Positions 1,553 through 43,516 of a DNA stretch of 56,150 bases are shown here, piece after piece. The translations under genes and the position numbers were made by a program. Position 1 is the first letter of the stretch. Every line of letters begins with the position of its first letter. The notes under the pieces were generated by a model. It was not told where the DNA came from and ran no database searches. It was given only the letters and a program-made list of their open reading frames with translations. This DNA is from a virus: positions 1 through 56,150 of IMG/VR virus record IMGVR_UViG_3300037097_000033; one strand, given 5' to 3'.

Positions 1553-3645
1553 CCACCACGGATCTCGATGTCCGCCACAACGGCCTCGCTCTACCCACTG
1601 CCGCCGTTCTCAGCACAGAGCAGGTCGATCTAATCAAGCGCACCATCGCCAAGGGGACGACGGACGACGAGCTCGCCCTGTTCGTGGCGCAATGCAACCG
1701 CACCGGCCTCGACCCGTTCAACCGCCAGATTTATTGCCTCAAACGCTGGAACGCTAGAGAGCAGCGCGAGGAAATGAGCATCCAGACCTCGATCGACGGC
1801 TTTCGCTTGGTGGCCGAGCGTTCCGACGTTTACGCCGGCCAGGACGGCCCGTACTGGTGCGGGCCCGACGGCGTGTGGAAAGACGTGTGGCTGGCCGAGA
1901 GCGCGCCGGCGGCGGCCAAGGTCGTAGCGCTGAAAGAGCGGCCGAGCGGCGCGCTGGCCCACTTCACGGGCATTGCCCTTTATGGCGAGTACGTGCAGAC
2001 GGGCAAGAACAGCGAACCGAACTCGATGTGGCGCAAGATGCCCGCCAACCAGCTCGCCAAGTGCTTCTCGTCGGACACTGAAATTTTGACCGAAGACGGC
2101 TTTCGTCTCTTCTCCAAGGTTCAGCCCGCGTGCCGCATAATGCAGGTCACGCCCGACGGACTGGAACCCGTCGATGCTGAACCCTTTGCTCAGCCCTACA
2201 CCGGGGCCATGATCGCGTATGACTCGGACGATCTGAACTTCTGTGTCACGCCAAACCATGACATGGTGACTACTTACGGCAAGGTTGAGGCCGGCGGCAT
2301 GTACGCCACAAGTCGCCAGCGCAGCACGTGGTCAATCCCTCGGATCGTACCGGTTGACGTCAAGGAGGCACCGATACCCGACGCCCTAATCCGGCTCTCG
2401 GCTTGGGTCCTGGCGGACGGTTATGCCCGCAATGGGGGATGGGGCATATCGGTGAGCCGACCACGCAAGCTCGCATCCCTGCGAGCACTAAGCCTCGCCA
2501 TCAGCGAGGGAGTTCAGCACTCGCGAGGCGCCGAGGTCACCGTTGCTTCAGGCAGGACGATCCGGTCGAACTTCGATAAGGCGGTTTTCCAGTTCAGGCT
2601 CAATGACGCAGCGCTCGTTTGTGGCGCCAAAGACGTGGACACCGAACTGCTACTCACCCTGTCCTCTCGTCAGGCGCGCATCTTCGTCGACACCTGGGTC
2701 GAGGCCGATGGCAACGAAAACCGCAAGACAGGCGTGCGCCGTCTTTATACTTCCAACCCGCTACACATGGACGCGTTCGAACTGGCCGCAGTTATGGCTG
2801 GCTACGCGGTGAGCGGGCGAAGCGAACGCACATCGGACATCAGCACGAAGCCCAACGCGAGCGTCACCATTAGTGCCCGCGATGCCATCCCGGTCTTCCG
2901 CAGGAGTCCCAAGTTGGGACCGACGCTGGCACTGCAAGAGAATGGCGATGGCGTGGTGTGGTGCATCACCGTGCCGTCTGGCGTCATAGTGGTACGCCGC
3001 AATGGCTTCTCAATGCTCTGCGGGAACTGTGCCGAGGCCCTGGCACTGCGCAAGGCATTCCCCAACGACCTCAGCGGGCTCTACACCGCAGACGAGATGG
3101 GCCAAGCGGACAATGTCCCGGCCCGGGCACCGGCAGTCACGAGCACGCCGACGACGACCCCTGCGGCCACTACGACGAGGTCCAGCCCCATGGCGGCCAA
3201 GCCGGCGCCCGCCGTTCCCGTCGACGTGCCCACGGGCGAGATCGACCCCGACGAGCTCGCCAAGCGCCGAGGCTGGGGCAACGCGCAGGACGAGCGCAAC
3301 GCCCGCAAGGCCGCCCGGGACGTACTGACCTACCGCAAGGCCGATGGCCGCATCACCTCGGAAGCGGCGAACGCGGCATGGGGCGAGTACGGCGATCACC
3401 CGACATCCGACGAGCACGACGCCTGGGTGGCCAAGCACTTACCTGTGATCACCCCTGAGGTTGCCGAAGACCCTTTAGCCGCTGGTGCCGAGAGAACCCC
3501 GCCGGGCCCGTCACCATCTGTTCTGGCCGCCGGCGGGGCGAGCAAGCGCCCGTCACCGCTCGCCGCAGTGCGTGATGCCCGAGAGCAGCTTGCACGGACC
3601 GCCGCCGCTACCGAGGCCGCTGAGGCAGAAGGGTTGCCATTTTGA
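1549..3645 (+). CDS. recT: RecT/Bet single-strand annealing protein interrupted by an intein
   Basis: The protein is a phage recombination (Bet/RecT) annealase that pairs complementary ssDNA, using 3' overhangs made by the exonuclease encoded just upstream. Signature segments are [29 protein letters not shown] and, after splicing, MPANQLAK joined to [15 protein letters not shown] and [10 protein letters not shown]. Start at 1549 is chosen because AGGAG lies just upstream and ATGA overlaps the previous stop. The N-extein is 171 residues, the intein 322, and the spliced product about 376. The C-terminal part is a Pro/Ala/Thr-rich linker then a charged domain ([17 protein letters not shown]). 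An intein inside the most conserved annealase motif means activity depends on splicing. Confidence 0.9.
2062..3027 (+). mobile_element. Intein with LAGLIDADG homing endonuclease, in RecT
   Basis: A 322-residue in-frame intein. It starts with Cys ([14 protein letters not shown], block A), has TPNHDM at about 63-68 (block B), two LAGLIDADG-like motifs, [11 protein letters not shown] (111-121) and [11 protein letters not shown] (208-218), and ends WCITVPSGV...[10 protein letters not shown] before the +1 Cys of the C-extein. The penultimate residue is Gly rather than the usual His, a known but uncommon variant that may slow Asn cyclisation. Both LAGLIDADG acidic residues are present, so the endonuclease looks intact and the element may still home into intein-free recT alleles. 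Confidence 0.9.
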
Positions 3646-15425: not shown

Positions 15426-16034
15426 TCAGTCGTAGGCGACGGTGAGCACAAGACCCGCGGGGAGCGCGGCCTGCATGGCGGCGACGAGTTGGGTCCCCGA
15501 GCCACCTAGGGCATTCCAGGTGGCAAAGGCGGCTTCTAGTGCGTTCCAGGTGGCGTATTCAGATCCAACGTAAAACCAAGTGCCAAGCACGCCGGCCCCC
15601 GGCACCGTGACCAGCACCTTGTACGGGTCGCCCTCGTAGCGCTCGGTCACCACAACGCCCGTGGTGGTAGTCAGGAAAGTGGCCGCCGCTGCGATGAGCG
15701 CGTCCACGGTGCCCCGCTGGAAACCCTGTTCGCCGGTGATGGCCGCCCGCATCTGGGCGTCGGTGGTCTGTAGCGAACTGAACCGCACGCCGACGAACTG
15801 GGCCAGCCACGGCAGGTCGGCCGTCGGGCACCGGGTGACGTCGAGCAGGATCGACCAGCCCGGGTTCTGGCCTTGGTCGCGCGCCAGCGTGTCCGTCGCC
15901 TGTAGCAGCGAGCAGGGCCCTTCAAGCCAGGAGAGGAACGGGTAGCCGTTGCCGGCGTCGCTGTCCTGGACGAATTGGGGCAGGAAGCCCCACAGGGTGG
16001 CTGTGTCGGGCGAACACGTCGAAGGGGTGAGCAT
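15426..16034 (-). CDS. Baseplate protein, P2 gpI-like (tail protein I)
   Basis: A 202-residue protein with CPTADLPWLAQFVGVRF (about 72-88), the hallmark of gpI-like proteins, which connect the wedge to the fibres. The C-terminal half (GVVVTERYEGDPYKVLVTV) is a beta domain. It directly follows gpJ with a one-base overlap, giving the standard order gp25-J-I-fibre. Confidence 0.8.
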   Translation of the reverse strand: MLTPSTCSPDTATLWGFLPQFVQDSDAGNGYPFLSWLEGPCSLLQATDTLARDQGQNPGWSILLDVTRCPTADLPWLAQFVGVRFSSLQTTDAQMRAAITGEQGFQRGTVDALIAAAATFLTTTTGVVVTERYEGDPYKVLVTVPGAGVLGTWFYVGSEYATWNALEAAFATWNALGGSGTQLVAAMQAALPAGLVLTVAYD

Positions 16035-17653
16035 TACGAGTGAGCCGAGACGGCCCCGGAAATGGTGCCGACGGTGGTGAGCGGGGCGTCACCCGGTAGC
16101 GAAAGGTTCGCGGTACCTGGGCTGTTGCCGTGGATGTTGATGGTGACGGCGAGACCGCCCCAAAGCCCCGGTGTGGCCGCCAGCACGCCTACGACGCCGA
16201 GGTAGTTGACCGTCGTCGCCGTCGGGTCCCAGGTGCCAGCCAATACCAGCGTCAGGACCGCGGTGCCTGAAGCCGTGGCCGGGTTGGAGATGGTCACCGA
16301 GCCGTCGTTGTTGACCGAGATGACCGCCGTGTTCGTCGGGATGCCATAGCCGCTGATGGGCTGGCCTGGCTCGACCTCGAAGGCGGGGTTGCCCTGAGCG
16401 TTGGCGGGCACGACTACGCCGGTGACGATGTCCGAGCCAGCGGTAAGGGTGCCGGCCAGATCGACCGAGGGAAGGCCCCAATTGCTGGGCGAGAGGTAGG
16501 CGCTGACCGCTGCGTCCCCGGCCGCCTGCACGGTGGTGATGTTCGCTCCCACCTGAGCGATGCCCGACCACGTGACGTCGATCTCGGTGTAGGTGGGCGA
16601 GATGACGAACACGAGGAAGTTGATCTCGCGCTGGCCCTCCAGGTAGGCCTGCAGGGCGGCCGTGACGGTCGGTGACAGGGCATTGCCGTCGATGTCCACC
16701 GCGGCGACGGTGACGCAGCGCTCGACGCCGGTGAGGTCCCCGAGCACGACCGTGCCGGTGGTCAGGGAGCCGGTGGCGGCGTGGCTCATCGTCACCTGCG
16801 TTGTCGAGACGTAGGCGCTGATGGTGGTGGAGCTCGGGATGTCCGTGCCCGTCACCAACCGGCCGACATCTTCGGCGCTGAACGAGCCGGCGGTGTCCAC
16901 GAGAGCGGTGGTGGTGGCGAGCGTGATCGTCCCCGTGATGGTGCGCCCGGCCGCCAGCAGGTTGATCGCCATGGCCCGGTAGACCCCGGCCACGTTGGTG
17001 GCCAGGGCGGCGAAGTCTTGGGGCAGGATCGGGCGCGGGCTGAGCAGTTGCAGCTCGGCCGATAGCCGGTTGAGGTAGGTGGCCAGCGACTCGGGGTTTG
17101 CCCCGCCCGAGGTCGTGGACGTGGCCACCACACTCTGGACGAAGGCGAGCTGGTTGACGAGCACCACGGGCACTGAGTCGGCGATCGAGTTGTTGACGGC
17201 TCCGGTCGTCGTCGCCTGGATGATTACGCCGGTAGCCGTCGACGAACCGGGCGGCACGGTGAAGGCGTTCACGGTAGCGAACTGGACCTGCACGTTGCCG
17301 AGGGTCTGGTAGGCCACCAGTGTGCCGGCGGGGACAGTGAAGCCGGCCGAGCTGACCATGGTCCACGTCGTCGTGGCTTGGCTGGCGGCCCCGGCGATGG
17401 GGAAGATGTTGACCAGCGACCCGAAGTACTGGAAGATCGCCGGCGGGACCTGTGCGGCCACTGTGGCCGACTCGCTGGCCATCTGCGCGAACTGCTCGAG
17501 GAGCAGGACGTCGAGTTGGCCCTCCTGGGGCACCCAGCCGGGCAGGTTGGCGGCGATCGTCGCCAGGGCGGCCTGCACCATGGCGTTTGGGTCCGTCGTG
17601 ACCGGCAAGACGATGTAACCGTTGTTGATGGTCAGGGGCGTGATGTCCGACAT
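16034..17653 (-). CDS. Baseplate wedge protein, gpJ-like
   Basis: A 539-residue baseplate J-like protein. VNIFPIAGAASQATTTW, a beta-sandwich region, and GGANPESLATYLNRLS followed by QLLSPRPILPQDFAALA are characteristic. It assembles the wedge around the tail hub. The protein is longer than P2 gpJ because of a Thr/Val-rich beta insertion around residues 240-300. Two more beta stretches lie near the C-terminus. Confidence 0.9.
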   Translation of the reverse strand: MSDITPLTINNGYIVLPVTTDPNAMVQAALATIAANLPGWVPQEGQLDVLLLEQFAQMASESATVAAQVPPAIFQYFGSLVNIFPIAGAASQATTTWTMVSSAGFTVPAGTLVAYQTLGNVQVQFATVNAFTVPPGSSTATGVIIQATTTGAVNNSIADSVPVVLVNQLAFVQSVVATSTTSGGANPESLATYLNRLSAELQLLSPRPILPQDFAALATNVAGVYRAMAINLLAAGRTITGTITLATTTALVDTAGSFSAEDVGRLVTGTDIPSSTTISAYVSTTQVTMSHAATGSLTTGTVVLGDLTGVERCVTVAAVDIDGNALSPTVTAALQAYLEGQREINFLVFVISPTYTEIDVTWSGIAQVGANITTVQAAGDAAVSAYLSPSNWGLPSVDLAGTLTAGSDIVTGVVVPANAQGNPAFEVEPGQPISGYGIPTNTAVISVNNDGSVTISNPATASGTAVLTLVLAGTWDPTATTVNYLGVVGVLAATPGLWGGLAVTINIHGNSPGTANLSLPGDAPLTTVGTISGAVSAHS

Positions 17654-29886: not shown

Positions 29887-31434
29887 TTAGGTACCGGCTG
29901 AGGCGTTGGTCCCAGCCGGGACTACGACCACGCTGTTCATGACGAACTCCGCCGTGGGACTGAATGCCACGGTCGTGGCCGCGAGCAGTTCGCCCGCGGC
30001 GAGGGTTATCGGGGTGTTCACCTGCGGGCCGGTGTTGACGCTGAAGGCGGCCGAGGCGGTGGCCCCGTACAAGGCACCGTTTTGCCACTCGCCCTGGCAG
30101 ACCCCGGCGATCGCTCCGTTGTAGGCGCTGATGGTATGGCCTTCACCGTCGATCTGTTCGAAGACGAAGGGCTTGCCAGCCTGGTCGAACAGGCTCTTGA
30201 GCGACATGCGCTCCCGGGCGTAGTTGGCCTGCGCCCACGCCGGGTTAGACGAGAAGGTGACGAAGCCGTAGAGCTCCACCGGTCCCCCCTGGCCGAACTG
30301 GCGGATGACCGAAACCCCGGCCGTGTTCAGCGTGCCCCGGTCGGCCTGGACATAGGTCTGCGTGACGCCGATGGCGTAGCTGGAGATGCCATTAGCGCCG
30401 GCGGCGGCGACGTTGCAGTTGTTGTTCTGGTCCGAGGTCGCCAGGAGGGCAGCGACCAGAGCGGAGGGCGGGACCGTGCGCGTGTTGGCCACAGGGGACG
30501 CCCCGATGGCCGCGCCGGCAATGCCGGGGATGATGACCCACGGGGCCAGGAACATCCCGAAGGAACCGTCGCCGCTCGTGATGCTCTGCACCGAGCTCAC
30601 GACGGAGCTCGCGGTCGCGGAGTCGACATCGTCGCAAAGAGCGAACCGGTTGTTGATCAGCGCGCCCGAGGACGGATCGAGCGCACCGGCGTGGGCGAGG
30701 AGAGCCTCCCACCCGAGTACGGTCGTGTGGCCTGGCGCGCAGACCTGGCCGGGGCCGAGCTCGGGTGGGAACGCAGTCAGAGCGCTGGTCCACGGCGTCT
30801 CGGTGACGCCCGCAAGGTTGTCGGCGCCCGTAGCGAGGTTGGTGGCAGCCAGGACGGCCGGGTTGTTGGTCGGCGAGACGCTCGCGCTGCCGTCGTTGGC
30901 GATCGTGAACGGGAACGCCCACGGCGTGGTGCCGGCCATGTTGGTGGCCCAGGTAACGGCGTCCGCCGGGAAGAACAGGTTCGGCGATACCCAGCTCTGG
31001 CCCGTGGCCGGGTTGGCGATGGTGATGACGTAGCTGTTGGAGGCGGTGCCGTTCGCCACTGCCACGGTGCACGCGTTGCCCCACACGCCGCCGCCGTTGG
31101 CCGTGACGGTCAGGGTGGAAAGCGGGCTGCCGGCCCGGTCCACCAGGACCAGGGTGGCATTGACGGCCGACGGGCCCACGATGCGGGAGCCGTAGGCCAG
31201 GACCCCGCCATCGTGGAAGAACTCGTCAAACCAGTCGTAAAACATCGTGTAGCCGTTGCGGGTGCCCAGGTAGGAGGCGTAGTCGGTCATCGACGTGATG
31301 GGGATGGCCACGCCGACCGGCCCTTGGGCCGCTTCACCGGTGACGAACGCCGTGCCGGTGCTGGGGGCGAGCCCGGCCGACGGAGCGGCGGCGATGATGT
31401 TGACGTAGTTGCCGGGGGCAGTGGGGACGGTCAT
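29887..31434 (-). CDS. Tail sheath protein
   Basis: A 515-residue sheath protein. TAFVTGEAAQGPVGVAIPIT near the N-terminus is the usual opening domain; the C-terminal region carries RFGQGGPVELYGFVTF-like segments (VIRQFGQGGPVELYGFV) and NYARERMSLKSLFDQA, typical of the conserved sheath core. It drives contraction. The ATG overlaps the previous gene's stop by 4 bp, so it is translationally coupled. Confidence 0.88.
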   Translation of the reverse strand: MTVPTAPGNYVNIIAAAPSAGLAPSTGTAFVTGEAAQGPVGVAIPITSMTDYASYLGTRNGYTMFYDWFDEFFHDGGVLAYGSRIVGPSAVNATLVLVDRAGSPLSTLTVTANGGGVWGNACTVAVANGTASNSYVITIANPATGQSWVSPNLFFPADAVTWATNMAGTTPWAFPFTIANDGSASVSPTNNPAVLAATNLATGADNLAGVTETPWTSALTAFPPELGPGQVCAPGHTTVLGWEALLAHAGALDPSSGALINNRFALCDDVDSATASSVVSSVQSITSGDGSFGMFLAPWVIIPGIAGAAIGASPVANTRTVPPSALVAALLATSDQNNNCNVAAAGANGISSYAIGVTQTYVQADRGTLNTAGVSVIRQFGQGGPVELYGFVTFSSNPAWAQANYARERMSLKSLFDQAGKPFVFEQIDGEGHTISAYNGAIAGVCQGEWQNGALYGATASAAFSVNTGPQVNTPITLAAGELLAATTVAFSPTAEFVMNSVVVVPAGTNASAGT

Positions 31435-38348: not shown

Positions 38349-40046
38349 TCAGATCGTGCCCGCCGGAGCAATCGAACACCGACAGTTGTGGACTAAAATG
38401 CCACTAGCGATGTACCAACCCGTCTCGGTGTGGAGGTTGTAAACGTGCCCGCTAAATGGAAGCCGCCGGACAGCGACGATTGGATCGAGGACTACCGCGC
38501 CGGCAAGTCCGTCAAACAACTGGCTGACGAGTTCGGGATCGCCCGCAATGCCGTGACTAGAACTCTCACCGAGAGGGGCGTCATCGTTCGAGACAACGCC
38601 ACTGCCAACCGGCTCATGCAGGCGGATAGGTCGCCGGAGCAACGAGCCTTGTGGACGCAAGCCGCCCACGACGCTGCCCGAGGACGGGTCAACACCTTCG
38701 AGGAGAAGTGTCTCGGTGCTCTCACTCGACAACGCACGCTCGGTATCCGTATGAGCCCGAGCGAGCAGCTCTTTGCTGGATGGCTTAGGGACCGAGGGAT
38801 CGACACGGTCCCGCAACTCGCCATCGGCCCATACAACGTGGACTTGGCTGCCGACCCCGTCGCCGTGGAAATCTTCGGAGGTGGTTGGCACGGTTATGGC
38901 GCTCACGCCGCACGTTCCGCTGAGCGTTTTCGCTACATTCTCGATGAAGGCTGGGCCGTGATAGTGGTATGGAGTGCGGTCCTCTATCGCATCTCTGCCC
39001 AGGCAGCGGACGAGGTTGTCGCCTTCGTGGAGCAAGCCCGCCGCGACCCAACCCTGCGGGGTGAGTACCGGATGATTAGGGGTAACGGTCACTTCGTTGC
39101 CAGCGGCCGTGAGAATCTCGACCACCTCACCCGAGTACCACCGGGCGGTTGAGCCAAGCACCCGCGGGGTGATGACCAGCGTGCCAGCCGGGAAGCAGTT
39201 GAAGTGTTGGGGGCAGCCCGGCAGGTCACTGAGCGAGTACGTGCCCTCTAGCGGCTCGCACTCGCCGCAGGCCCCCGGCTGTGTGATGTAGTCGAACATC
39301 TCGACGCCGGCGGAGACGAGCTGAGCCAGCTGCGCCCGCTTCATCGCCGTGTTTATGGCCTCGTCGATGTAGCCCTGCGCACCGGCGCCCTTGTCGATGA
39401 CCTCGTTTACCGCCTTGACCAGTTCCTCGCTGCCGAAGTTGTGGGCGATGCCGTCGGCGATCACCCGGCCCATGTCCCCGGCGAGGCCCAAGAGCTGGTC
39501 TGCTATCCACTCGGGCGCTTCGGAGCCGTAGCTGTCGAGCGTGCGGAGCTGGGCCAGCGTGTCGCGGTAGAGCTGGTCGAGGTCGACGGGCACGTCCAGG
39601 CGTCCGCTGTCGGCCAGTAGCGCCGTCGCTTGGGTCACGCCCTCCGCTGCCGCTTCTGCCTCGGCCAGCGAGACGAGCTCGGTCCAGTCCTTCTCGGTCG
39701 ACGGATTGGCCCGTAACCAACTGCGCAGCCAGAGCAGGGCGAGCGCCTTGGCCGTGTCCCGCCGCAATGTGTAGAGGGCGCTGCGGGGCGTCTCCGCCCC
39801 CATATCGTCGCTTGAGGCTGAGAACGGGCCGATACCCGAGGCGTGGAACTGGGCCGCCGCAGCGGACACTACGGTGGCCGTGGGGAACGTCTTGGCTATC
39901 GACCTCGGGACGGGCTTGATCTTGCGGGCCCATCGCTTGCTCAGGCGCTCCCGGCGCTCGGCCAGGGTGGCCAGCACGCCCTCGTAGCGCTCCACCTCGG
40001 CCACGGCGATGCCGTAGCGGCTGGCGATCTCCTCCGCCAGGGTCAC
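38349..40046 (-). CDS. MuF-type minor head protein interrupted by an intein
   Basis: The protein is a MuF-like minor capsid protein, usually injected with DNA and needed for head assembly. The N-extein (283 residues) is helical and ends ITQPGACGECEPLEGTYSL then LPGCPQHFN; the C-extein is CRCSIAPAGTI. Joined, CPQHFNCRCS is the MuF signature. A 271-residue intein splits it. A rightward gene is encoded on the other strand within the intein. The N-terminal start overlaps the next upstream gene. Confidence 0.85.
   Translation of the reverse strand: MTLAEEIASRYGIAVAEVERYEGVLATLAERRERLSKRWARKIKPVPRSIAKTFPTATVVSAAAAQFHASGIGPFSASSDDMGAETPRSALYTLRRDTAKALALLWLRSWLRANPSTEKDWTELVSLAEAEAAAEGVTQATALLADSGRLDVPVDLDQLYRDTLAQLRTLDSYGSEAPEWIADQLLGLAGDMGRVIADGIAHNFGSEELVKAVNEVIDKGAGAQGYIDEAINTAMKRAQLAQLVSAGVEMFDYITQPGACGECEPLEGTYSLSDLPGCPQHFNCFPAGTLVITPRVLGSTARWYSGEVVEILTAAGNEVTVTPNHPVLTPQGWVAAGLLHEGDNLVRCLGRDAIEDRTPYHYHGPAFIENVAKTLSGTCGVSAITVPTTSEDFHGDGVGSQVHVVWADGELRDRVDPSVPKPSSKELLARAHTDTERALSSESTETLLLEGVDPSSGSVVGGLRPQGSLLRRPIRLHEPVGSGVVSNDDAPLGESSSHGIAGDPELVSQLFDGLAGAVVLDPIVAVRRLPFSGHVYNLHTETGWYIASGILVHNCRCSIAPAGTI
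38385..39197 (-). mobile_element. Intein in the MuF protein, with an antisense gene inside
   Basis: A 271-residue intein beginning CFPAGTLVITPRVLGSTARW, with block B TPNHPVLTPQGWV, and ending SGHVYNLHTETGWYIASGI LVHN followed by Cys +1. The canonical penultimate His and terminal Asn are present, so splicing looks competent. Between the splicing blocks is a ~160-residue stretch (PTTSEDFHGDGVGSQVHVVW) with no LAGLIDADG; read on the opposite strand this stretch encodes a Vsr/DUF559-like endonuclease (38445-39152). Confidence 0.9.
38445..39152 (+). CDS. HTH plus Vsr/DUF559-like endonuclease antisense to the intein
   Basis: GTG 38445 is preceded by GGAGG with eight bases between, a strong ribosome site. 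The 235-residue product has an HTH (about 21-45: KSVKQLADEFGIARNAVTRT) and a Vsr-like nuclease domain: SPSEQLFAGWLRDRGI (Glu107), GPYNVDLAADPVAVEIFGG (Asp133, Glu142) and GWHGYGAHAARSAERFRYIL (His149, His154), then GWAVIVVW. This is the EDxHD/DUF559 pattern seen in homing and repair nucleases. The whole gene lies inside the intein on the other strand. It likely serves as the homing enzyme; that is inference. Confidence 0.85.
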   Translation: MPAKWKPPDSDDWIEDYRAGKSVKQLADEFGIARNAVTRTLTERGVIVRDNATANRLMQADRSPEQRALWTQAAHDAARGRVNTFEEKCLGALTRQRTLGIRMSPSEQLFAGWLRDRGIDTVPQLAIGPYNVDLAADPVAVEIFGGGWHGYGAHAARSAERFRYILDEGWAVIVVWSAVLYRISAQAADEVVAFVEQARRDPTLRGEYRMIRGNGHFVASGRENLDHLTRVPPGG

Positions 40047-41491: not shown

Positions 41492-43516
41492 TTAAGCGAC
41501 ACCCACGCAACGCCATTTACTTGTCTCTGAGTTCCAGTCGAAGCCCATATCGAGCCTTGCTGCTGCCACTGTCGTGGTGGGCAACGCTACGTTGCCACTG
41601 GCCTCAAAAGAAGTGCCGAAGGTGAGGCCCACGGCACCGCTGCCTGTTACGGAGATGCGCAGCGTGTCGCCGTCTACCGGTGTGCCGGTGAGGTTGGTGG
41701 TGAAGGATGTGATGGCGGTGCTGCCCTGGGCTGTGATATGTACCACGTCGTACAGGTCCGTGTTGATTGCGGGGGTGGCCGATGCCGCCGAGAGGCTGAG
41801 CACCCTGGAAGTGATCCGCTTATTGGTGAACGTACCAACACCGGCCAGGGTCGGTGTCGTAGCCGAGTTTGGACCGCTGCCAGGGCTACCCGTGAACGGG
41901 AAGGCATTGACGCTTCTGACGAAAGCCGCCGCGGCAGGAGCGTCGGCACTGGAGGAACTGATCGTGTAGTCCCCGTCAGACTGGCTGCGCTGCCACTGTG
42001 TGACGAAGATGCAGTTGGGCATCTGCGTTTGCACCATCTGGAACAGCAGGTCGTACCAGGCTGCTTTGCCCGTAGTCAGGCCGCCGTTGGCGCTAGCACC
42101 CGTTACGGCGCTGTTGAGGGCCGAGCTGGTGCAGCCAAACTCGCCAATGGCGAACGGCTTGGACGGGGCCAGCGCACACAGCGACAGGTAGTTGTTCAGG
42201 AACAGGGCAGGTGGGGTGAGCAGTGGAGATTGAACGGTTTCCATGTACCCATCGAGAGCGATGATGTCCACGTAAGCATCGCCGGGGTACCAGTTCACGC
42301 CGCTGCCATCAGCCACCGTGGGGTCTACTTGATTAGCGCTTGTCCAGCCGGTGCCGCTCCAAACGTTCGGGTTCCAGCACCAGAGGACATTGGTGGCGCC
42401 GTAGGCACGGAAGAGGTTGACGATATGCTTCCAGCCCGCCACGAACTGAGCCGCCGTCTCCGTGCCGTAGCCAAAGCTCGACCAGTTCGCATTGAACTCG
42501 TGGGCCAGTCTAATGACAACGGGACCGCCGTAAGCAGCGCAAGCGGTTGCTAGACCGACCAGTCCAGTGCCGCTATAGAGGCCCGACGTGTCATAGGTCC
42601 CGGCAGTGAACTGGTTCAAAGCTCCCGTCGGGTCACAGGCGGACATGATGATGGCTTGCAATGCCGCGGCCCAGGTCGGGTACGCGCTGTAGAAGATGGG
42701 TTCGCTATTGAGCGCCTGCATAAACAGCAGCATGTCAACCGAACGCGGAGCAATTAACGCATTAAATGATGTGAAGTCGGCGAGGGCCGGTGAACTAGAG
42801 CCGCACACGCCGAGCATGACCGTGGGCCGACTGATGCGCGCAGCGGTGACGGGGTTGCTCAGCCCCCCGGCGCTTCCCGTGGTGCCCACCCAAACGTTCG
42901 CTGCCGTCTGGATGAGCGTGATGGCCTGGTAGGCGCCCGTGGTCGCAACCGAGCCGCCGCTGACCCCGTTGAGGGTCACGCCCGCGGCGCCGGTGACGGT
43001 CAGGACCCCGGAGCCGGGGCCGTCCAAGGCCGTTATCTCTGTGGGGACGCCGAAGCCCACTGTGGAATTGAGGGGGATCGTGAAGGTGGCACCGGTGGCG
43101 TTGGTCGACTCCACGACGGTGCCCTCGTCGGCCAGGGCGAAGGTGTAGGTCGCTCCGGCCTGCTGGGTGACCACCAGCGCTTGAGCCGCCCCGTTCAGGA
43201 ACCCCGCGGGGATGGTGTTCGTGAACGTGTCGCCTATCGAGTGGGTCTTGACGACCCCATTGGTCCCCATGCCGCGCAGCACGACCACCTGGGTGCCGTT
43301 CAAGACCTCCGTGACGACGACTATCTCGGGGTTGGTGTCACCGCCGGGAGGGAGGACCGTGGCGCCGTACCGCTGGCCAGTGGTCGGCTGCGGCAGCGGC
43401 GGGCTGCCCGTCGTCGAGGTGAGGCTCCACGTCTCTGTGGTGCCCGGCGTGGGCGTGGTGGAAATAGGGGCAGCCAGCGTGGTAGAGCCCGCGTCAGCGA
43501 AGATCCATGTAGTCAT
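41492..43516 (-). CDS. Virion-associated GH26-like glycoside hydrolase
   Basis: A 674-residue protein with three parts. The N-terminal ~220 residues are beta-rich, fibre-like. Residues ~230-530 match a GH26 TIM barrel: VVIRLAHEFNANWSSFG with His339-Glu340 (acid/base), LWCWNPNVWSG, PGDAYVDIIALDGY, and FAIGEFGC with Glu459 (nucleophile). The C-terminal part is a beta domain (TSFTTNLTGTPVDGDTLRIS). GH26 enzymes cut beta-mannan and related glycans, so this is probably a depolymerase or receptor-degrading spike for the host surface. It lies among head genes rather than beside the tail fibres. Confidence 0.75.
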   Translation of the reverse strand: MTTWIFADAGSTTLAAPISTTPTPGTTETWSLTSTTGSPPLPQPTTGQRYGATVLPPGGDTNPEIVVVTEVLNGTQVVVLRGMGTNGVVKTHSIGDTFTNTIPAGFLNGAAQALVVTQQAGATYTFALADEGTVVESTNATGATFTIPLNSTVGFGVPTEITALDGPGSGVLTVTGAAGVTLNGVSGGSVATTGAYQAITLIQTAANVWVGTTGSAGGLSNPVTAARISRPTVMLGVCGSSSPALADFTSFNALIAPRSVDMLLFMQALNSEPIFYSAYPTWAAALQAIIMSACDPTGALNQFTAGTYDTSGLYSGTGLVGLATACAAYGGPVVIRLAHEFNANWSSFGYGTETAAQFVAGWKHIVNLFRAYGATNVLWCWNPNVWSGTGWTSANQVDPTVADGSGVNWYPGDAYVDIIALDGYMETVQSPLLTPPALFLNNYLSLCALAPSKPFAIGEFGCTSSALNSAVTGASANGGLTTGKAAWYDLLFQMVQTQMPNCIFVTQWQRSQSDGDYTISSSSADAPAAAAFVRSVNAFPFTGSPGSGPNSATTPTLAGVGTFTNKRITSRVLSLSAASATPAINTDLYDVVHITAQGSTAITSFTTNLTGTPVDGDTLRISVTGSGAVGLTFGTSFEASGNVALPTTTVAAARLDMGFDWNSETSKWRCVGVA

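Follow-up and report, generated by a model that had tools for sequence, protein, structure and literature searches.

The window, by which we mean the whole 56,150-nucleotide stretch of viral DNA analyzed here (IMG/VR record IMGVR_UViG_3300037097_000033), contains on its minus strand a MuF-type head morphogenesis gene interrupted by an intein and, on the plus strand of the intein-coding segment, a gene for a putative nuclease. The following features were assigned:

38349–40046, minus strand: MuF-type head morphogenesis gene with intein (phrog_15127 head protein, 7.5e-33; Intein_splicing, 2.3e-7); the start is that of the mechanically called open reading frame (ORF) and is putative
39198–40046, minus strand: N-extein, ending ...CPQHFN
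38385–39197, minus strand: intein, 271 aa, Cys1 to Asn271, followed by Cys+1
39171–39197, minus strand: intein block A (CFPAGTLVI); Cys1 invariant in family alignment A2
39060–39089, minus strand: intein block B (TVTPNHPVLT; T39, H42); T39 and H42 invariant in A2
38856–38891, minus strand: intein motif VPTTSEDFHGDG, residues 103–114, facing the active site of the nuclease; under selection in the intein frame when the nuclease is fixed
38433–38447, minus strand: intein His251 with the beginning of block F (HVYNL), facing the start codon and ribosome-binding site of the nuclease gene; His in 138/161 homologues
38385–38408, minus strand: intein block G (SGILVHN with the Ala263–Asn271 region); N271 invariant in A2
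38352–38384, minus strand: C-extein CRCSIAPAGTI
38432–38436, plus strand: GGAGG ribosome-binding site, 8 nt before the GTG; Shine–Dalgarno (SD)-like motif in 127 homologues
38445–39152, plus strand: antisense nuclease gene, 235 aa, GTG start, TGA stop; assigned from sequence, relatives, shuffles and dN/dS
38487–38612, plus strand: predicted helix-turn-helix (HTH) domain, residues 15–56; HTH_58 (4.1e-4) and helices in the AlphaFold (AF2) model
38757–39044, plus strand: predicted Vsr/EDxHD-like nuclease domain, about residues 105–200 (E107, D133, E142, H149); MTES_1575, I-Bth0305I fold and conservation
38832–38891, plus strand: putative active-site motif YNVDLAADPVAVEIFGGGWH, residues 130–149; D133 and E142 invariant in 174 relatives

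Elsewhere in the window, tail sheath and baseplate J proteins (29887–31434 and 16034–17653, respectively) indicate that the phage has a contractile tail, and a glycosyl hydrolase family 26 domain (7e-9) was detected in a protein of the structural region (41492–43516).

The MuF gene of the window is split at HFN|CRC (in general HxN|CRC) by an intein whose coordinates, good splice blocks and lack of a LAGLIDADG domain had been described in an initial annotation of this DNA, and all three hold. C1, T39, H42 and N271 do not vary in A2, class 1 (Cys1) splicing motifs are present, and Pfam scans of 19 intein family members returned Intein_splicing alone in 19/19, with no in-frame LAGLIDADG or HNH domain, which rules out an endonuclease domain inside the intein's own frame. 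Solved inteins were matched by the family profile, and the best Foldseek match to the intein model, with its Hint fold, was the Mtu RecA intein (3e-4). In the structure model, the splicing domain is predicted with confidence at both ends of the intein and residues 125–219 are predicted to be disordered. The intein is expected to splice itself out of the MuF protein. We also observed that it aligns to solved mini-inteins only from residue 21–24, at about residue 55 of theirs, which leaves its splicing domain ~30 residues short of the usual length in the N-terminal part.

The rightward gene with its own GGAGG lies exactly where the initial annotation had placed it. All 235 codons fall inside the intein, from a start opposite block F to an end just within block A, so that the overlap takes in the middle of the intein and also some of the splicing domain. 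The product had been described as an HTH protein with a Vsr/DUF559-like nuclease domain. Searched alone against Pfam, it gave two weak matches (HTH_58, E = 4e-4; MTES_1575, 3e-6, below the curated cut-off), and of 36 nuclease relatives 29 matched MTES_1575 and 5 DUF559. An AF2 model built from these 36 relatives reached a mean pLDDT of 88.8, and its best Foldseek match in the PDB was I-Bth0305I (3r3p; probability 1.00, TM 0.62 (target)), at a modest E-value of 0.011 and with marginal sequence similarity. The modeled fold is thus nearest to that of the EDxHD homing endonuclease I-Bth0305I, with its Vsr-like domain; the HTH and the Vsr-like assignment stand, and DUF559 gives way to MTES_1575 as the best Pfam family. 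Longer members of the nuclease family have an extra N-terminal HTH copy.

Five residues, E107, D133, E142, H149 and H154, had been named for the nuclease in the initial annotation. Across 174 distinct relatives, D133 and E142 were each kept in 174/174 and position 107 was Glu in 168 and Asp in 5, in agreement with that list; H149 was mostly kept (151/174), and H154, present in 110/174, does not belong with the conserved set. In Guernseyvirinae loci (L053, L054 and L272–L278), the near-invariant motif GGGWH reads GGGWAC, with H149 replaced by Ala, and these Ala149 elements look recently transferred. Either His149 is dispensable or the activity of these enzymes differs.

The nuclease start is closely tied to block F. 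In 138/161 homologues, the residue before the block F VY has an ATG or GTG exactly across from it, a placement that makes this residue His. Where the His is absent, the start had moved by one or two codons in 11 homologues and none could be assigned in 12. An SD-like motif precedes 127 of the 149 assigned starts. A sigma-70-type promoter for the antisense gene was not found in the window, nor a plus-strand promoter site upstream of the nuclease start in phage dunkel. We infer that the antisense nuclease is expressed from the opposite strand.

The nested arrangement is widespread. Using tblastn, the nuclease matched 129 phage records, largely the same phages as those found with the intein-bearing MuF protein, and among the matches listed it sits under head-morphogenesis, MuF-like, minor capsid, related or unnamed annotations. 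Hosts included Gordonia, Mycobacterium, Rhodococcus, Salmonella, Escherichia, Klebsiella, Cronobacter, Pseudomonas, Vibrio, Aggregatibacter, Edwardsiella and others. Two plasmid records also matched, one of them annotated as a phage minor head protein. A contig scan with one short motif added two loci, in Micromonospora and Ornatilinea genomes; collection scans were keyed on motifs of these proteins, and their counts are no measure of how common other arrangements are. Among 396 genomes from the phylum of the Micromonospora genome, four genomes and one contig fragment gave strong nuclease matches, each fetched one of which has the antisense intein; weaker matches were mostly HTH-only or nuclease-domain-only. 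Over all fetched sequence, 173 of 174 distinct nuclease relatives lie antisense inside an intein, and all 173 share one codon register, in which positions 1 and 3 stand opposite each other and the middle bases pair, as seen in the active-site codon table. The antisense frame stays open in homologous MuF inteins, with the E/D/E residues retained in 168–174 of 174. Searching with the N-terminal part of the intein only, we found the nuclease in 73 of 75 newly fetched loci, the exceptions being one cut-off contig and one decayed copy. In Mycobacterium phage Sejanus (L062), the same intein–nuclease pair occupies another head-gene site, VWV|C...HN|CTIDGKTR. Salmonella phage vB_StyS-sam (L065) has a partial plus-strand hypothetical ORF, Sam_Sp43, annotated inside its intein at 2730–3131; among the fetched phage records, this is the sole intein-embedded nuclease with even partial annotation.

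In this register, a stop codon in one frame always faces a Leu (TTA, CTA) or Ser (TCA) codon in the other. Synonymous choice can avoid these codons, which allows the two genes to remain open and under selection together. The initial annotation had pointed out that the nuclease core is the exact complement of the intein segment with SEDFHGDG; this is true by construction, and the finding proper is that both readings are selected. At 48 loci, we held the amino acids of one protein fixed, drew synonymous codons from each genome's own usage and scored the shuffles with family profiles built without close relatives (leave-one-out). With the window intein fixed, the antisense frame acquired 7.9 stops on average and an open ORF arose in 0/500 shuffles. 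Across the 48 loci, mean stop numbers were 1–30 in the antisense frame with the intein fixed and 1–23 in the sense frame with the nuclease fixed. At 48/48 loci, the observed nuclease outscored all 100 intein-fixed shuffles (mean z 13.0), and the observed intein likewise outscored all 100 nuclease-fixed shuffles (48/48; mean z 8.8).

These shuffles bear on the possibility that the nuclease is a chance antisense ORF, in which a GC-rich register frame tends to be open and the apparent protein is a shadow of intein conservation. GC content is indeed high in the window, and the antisense frame opened by chance in up to 32% of shuffles at some GC-rich loci. However, loci of 34–45% GC, for which 13–30 antisense stops are expected, have none, every shuffle fell short of the observed nuclease profile score, and the product belongs to known HTH and nuclease families with a known fold and has a dN/dS of 0.18. 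A chance GC-driven ORF is hence vanishingly improbable and is ruled out by the shuffles and the low-GC homologues.

The dN/dS values came from an overlap-aware substitution count on eight Guernseyvirinae-type elements (ten fetched, two near-duplicates dropped), which gave 0.18 (0.13–0.24) for the nuclease and 0.38 (0.28–0.52) for the intein. In the same eight elements, doubly synonymous sites were near saturation (0.98) and doubly nonsynonymous ones stood at 0.05. Nuclease constraint was strongest over the HTH part (0.11) and weakest at the C-terminus opposite blocks A/B (0.56), where the intein value was 0.32. The initial annotation had named purifying selection on both strands as the test to make. 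Together with the shuffles in each direction, the counts show, at the level of sequence comparison, that both frames are conserved and under purifying selection.

Constraint on the intein beyond that imposed by the nuclease varied by region, being strong in blocks A/B, clear in residues 101–125 (VPTxxEDFHGDG; z 3.2 with the nuclease fixed, 45/46 loci) and in block F, and small in residues 126–235. This distribution is relevant to a second alternative, that of a real nuclease paired with an intein that has lost splicing or whose frame opposite the nuclease is just open filler without function. The predicted disorder of residues 125–219 and the little intein-frame constraint there would suit such filler, but the splicing blocks are conserved, and selection on them exceeds what the nuclease imposes, an unspliced insert in the HPN|CRC stretch of a head protein would probably be harmful and one intein has stayed open after its nuclease decayed (L246, below). 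We consider this alternative quite improbable as a whole. An intein frame that is an empty shell is ruled out for the splicing blocks and residues 101–125 and largely accepted for residues 126–235, which confines the filler reading to the linker.

Natural controls were provided by loci where the pairing has broken down. At L246 (68% GC), the nuclease frame contains 7 stops and lacks a start codon opposite block F (GYVYNL), while the 350-residue intein is still open with its end motifs kept. Rhodococcus phage REQ3 carries a degenerate copy with Cys1 changed to Ala and a nuclease without HTH. Related inteins with a broken antisense frame, which the initial annotation would have counted against the idea, thus exist, as rare decay products. 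The one relative of the 174 without an intact intein around it is in Acinetobacter phage BUCT629 (L056), where the nuclease gene neighbors an uninterrupted MuF gene; 12 stops interrupt the register frame complementary to this nuclease. This freestanding relative (2315–3208), annotated as a hypothetical protein, is convergent to the MuF gene and just overlaps it; a weak trace of the intein profile was seen opposite it. An intein may have been lost from around the BUCT629 nuclease, or this copy may represent a freestanding stage.

Exact empty sites suggest that the element is mobile. Over 4.9 kb, Pseudomonas phages BR313c and PP9W share 95% identity, the element being inserted precisely in BR313c and absent from PP9W. 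Empty-site relatives in the Guernseyvirinae share up to 94% identity with the spliced MuF protein, and many further empty-site relatives indicate precise insertion at a conserved position in a host protein that also occurs intein-free. Divergence also differs between inteins and their surroundings: inteins 0–4% apart occur where exteins have diverged by as much as about 30%. Between Snoke (Escherichia) and PST-H1 (Salmonella), intein divergence is 2.3%, compared to 20–31% for the adjacent exteins, and the inteins of dunkel and sam are identical, with the upstream flank ~27% and the first 600 bp downstream 0–9% apart. SE1 and SaI_NFG show the reverse pattern, with upstream extein stretches 1–3% apart and inteins 19%. 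Reduced divergence from dual coding alone fails to explain mismatches in both directions; the compared sequences show that the element's history differs from that of its host gene. The transfer itself could also reflect ordinary phage recombination. The compact mobile system suspected in the initial annotation gains support from these empty-site alleles and signs of horizontal transfer.

If the nuclease were a decaying, non-working fossil, the mosaics would be products of ordinary recombination. The decayed copies in L246 and REQ3 and the H149 substitutions of some clades point that way, but the nuclease dN/dS of 0.18 among close phages, the presence/absence polymorphism and the low divergence specific to the element speak against it, making a fossil very improbable. 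Alternatively, the nuclease might have a different purpose, for instance defense or keeping out rival phages that co-infect, with intein spread being incidental. The freestanding copy adjoining an intein-less MuF gene in BUCT629 would fit this role, and cutting of rivals' MuF genes would presumably follow from the same activity; nesting in 173/174 cases and exact empty-site polymorphism nevertheless fit homing best, and we rate this other purpose as improbable.

We therefore favor, with a probability of about 0.86, a mobile intein with a separately encoded homing endonuclease, the gene for which occupies the complementary strand of the intein DNA. Inserted in MuF at the conserved HPN|CRC residues, the intein would splice itself out of the head protein, and the antisense gene would yield a protein with an N-terminal HTH and a C-terminal Vsr/EDxHD-like nuclease. 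This enzyme may cut MuF alleles without the intein, and repair of the cut allele would copy the element into the intein-less MuF gene. Splicing, nuclease expression and empty-site cleavage are the three activities that we infer. More broadly, it appears highly likely that these loci represent a class of mobile inteins widespread in phages, with splicing protein and homing endonuclease encoded by the two complementary strands of one DNA segment and the nuclease active site (PVAVEIFGGGWH) opposite the separately selected intein motif VPTxxEDFHGDG.

Endonuclease-bearing inteins are textbook mobile elements. Here, the enzyme lies on the opposite strand, in an arrangement that persists across many phage groups, with almost no annotation in the GenBank records examined. 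Such an arrangement would account for the spread of short MuF inteins that look endonuclease-free and suggests a both-strand search of other inteins lacking an endonuclease. If the proposal is true, nature has here kept two unrelated folds under long-term selection while they overlap antisense in codon register, and has compressed a self-mobilizing element to about 0.8 kb. The 173 sequences form a large natural data set on such antisense coding of two different folds, with bearing on the limits of gene overlap and on the Rodin–Ohno idea. Escherichia phages with and without the element (Snoke and fEg-Eco19) make homing testable.

Our search of the open literature returned no report of an antisense endonuclease in an intein; subscription papers lay outside it, and an earlier report may exist there. 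MuF-site inteins of the same family and site have been annotated in phages, as in Snoke and in Salmonella Jerseyvirus, where an intein-containing capsid morphogenesis protein was noted (PMC8425127), with the antisense nuclease unannotated. A mycobacteriophage intein survey mentions neither MuF, capsid nor antisense (PMC5050341).

The MuF element shares with canonical mobile inteins, which contain in-frame LAGLIDADG or HNH domains, the splicing blocks in a conserved site, endonuclease-linked mobility and exact empty sites. It differs in that the putative endonuclease is a separate opposite-strand gene, fully overlapping the intein and outside the intein protein. Members of the EDxHD group are said, in work by Dassa in 2009 and by Taylor, to occur in introns, free-standing or in fractured genes (in Dassa's case, split-intein loci). 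This homing endonuclease family (PMC3943268), of which an outgroup occurs in phage group II introns (PMC12350094), resembles the MuF-intein nuclease in the best fold match (I-Bth0305I), the combination of a DNA-binding part with a Vsr-like nuclease and the association with phage mobile elements. The MuF-intein nuclease, in contrast, is antisense in an intein, its His is not universal and the sequence similarity is marginal. The ShiLan domain, an HNH insertion out of frame in another frame of the same direction, whose in-frame product is not an intein (PMC11855218), also hides an endonuclease in another frame of an insertion that is open in the host gene's frame and has a disjunct distribution. 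There, the hidden gene is an HNH endonuclease running in the same direction, whereas the MuF element uses the opposite strand and a true intein. Lastly, antisense homing endonuclease genes are found in nuclear group I introns, for example, I-DsqI (PMC9548176), and they, too, run antisense to their self-splicing element. Those genes, however, are inserts in a peripheral RNA segment of the ribozyme and the other strand codes no second protein, whereas in the MuF element both strands encode a protein under selection.
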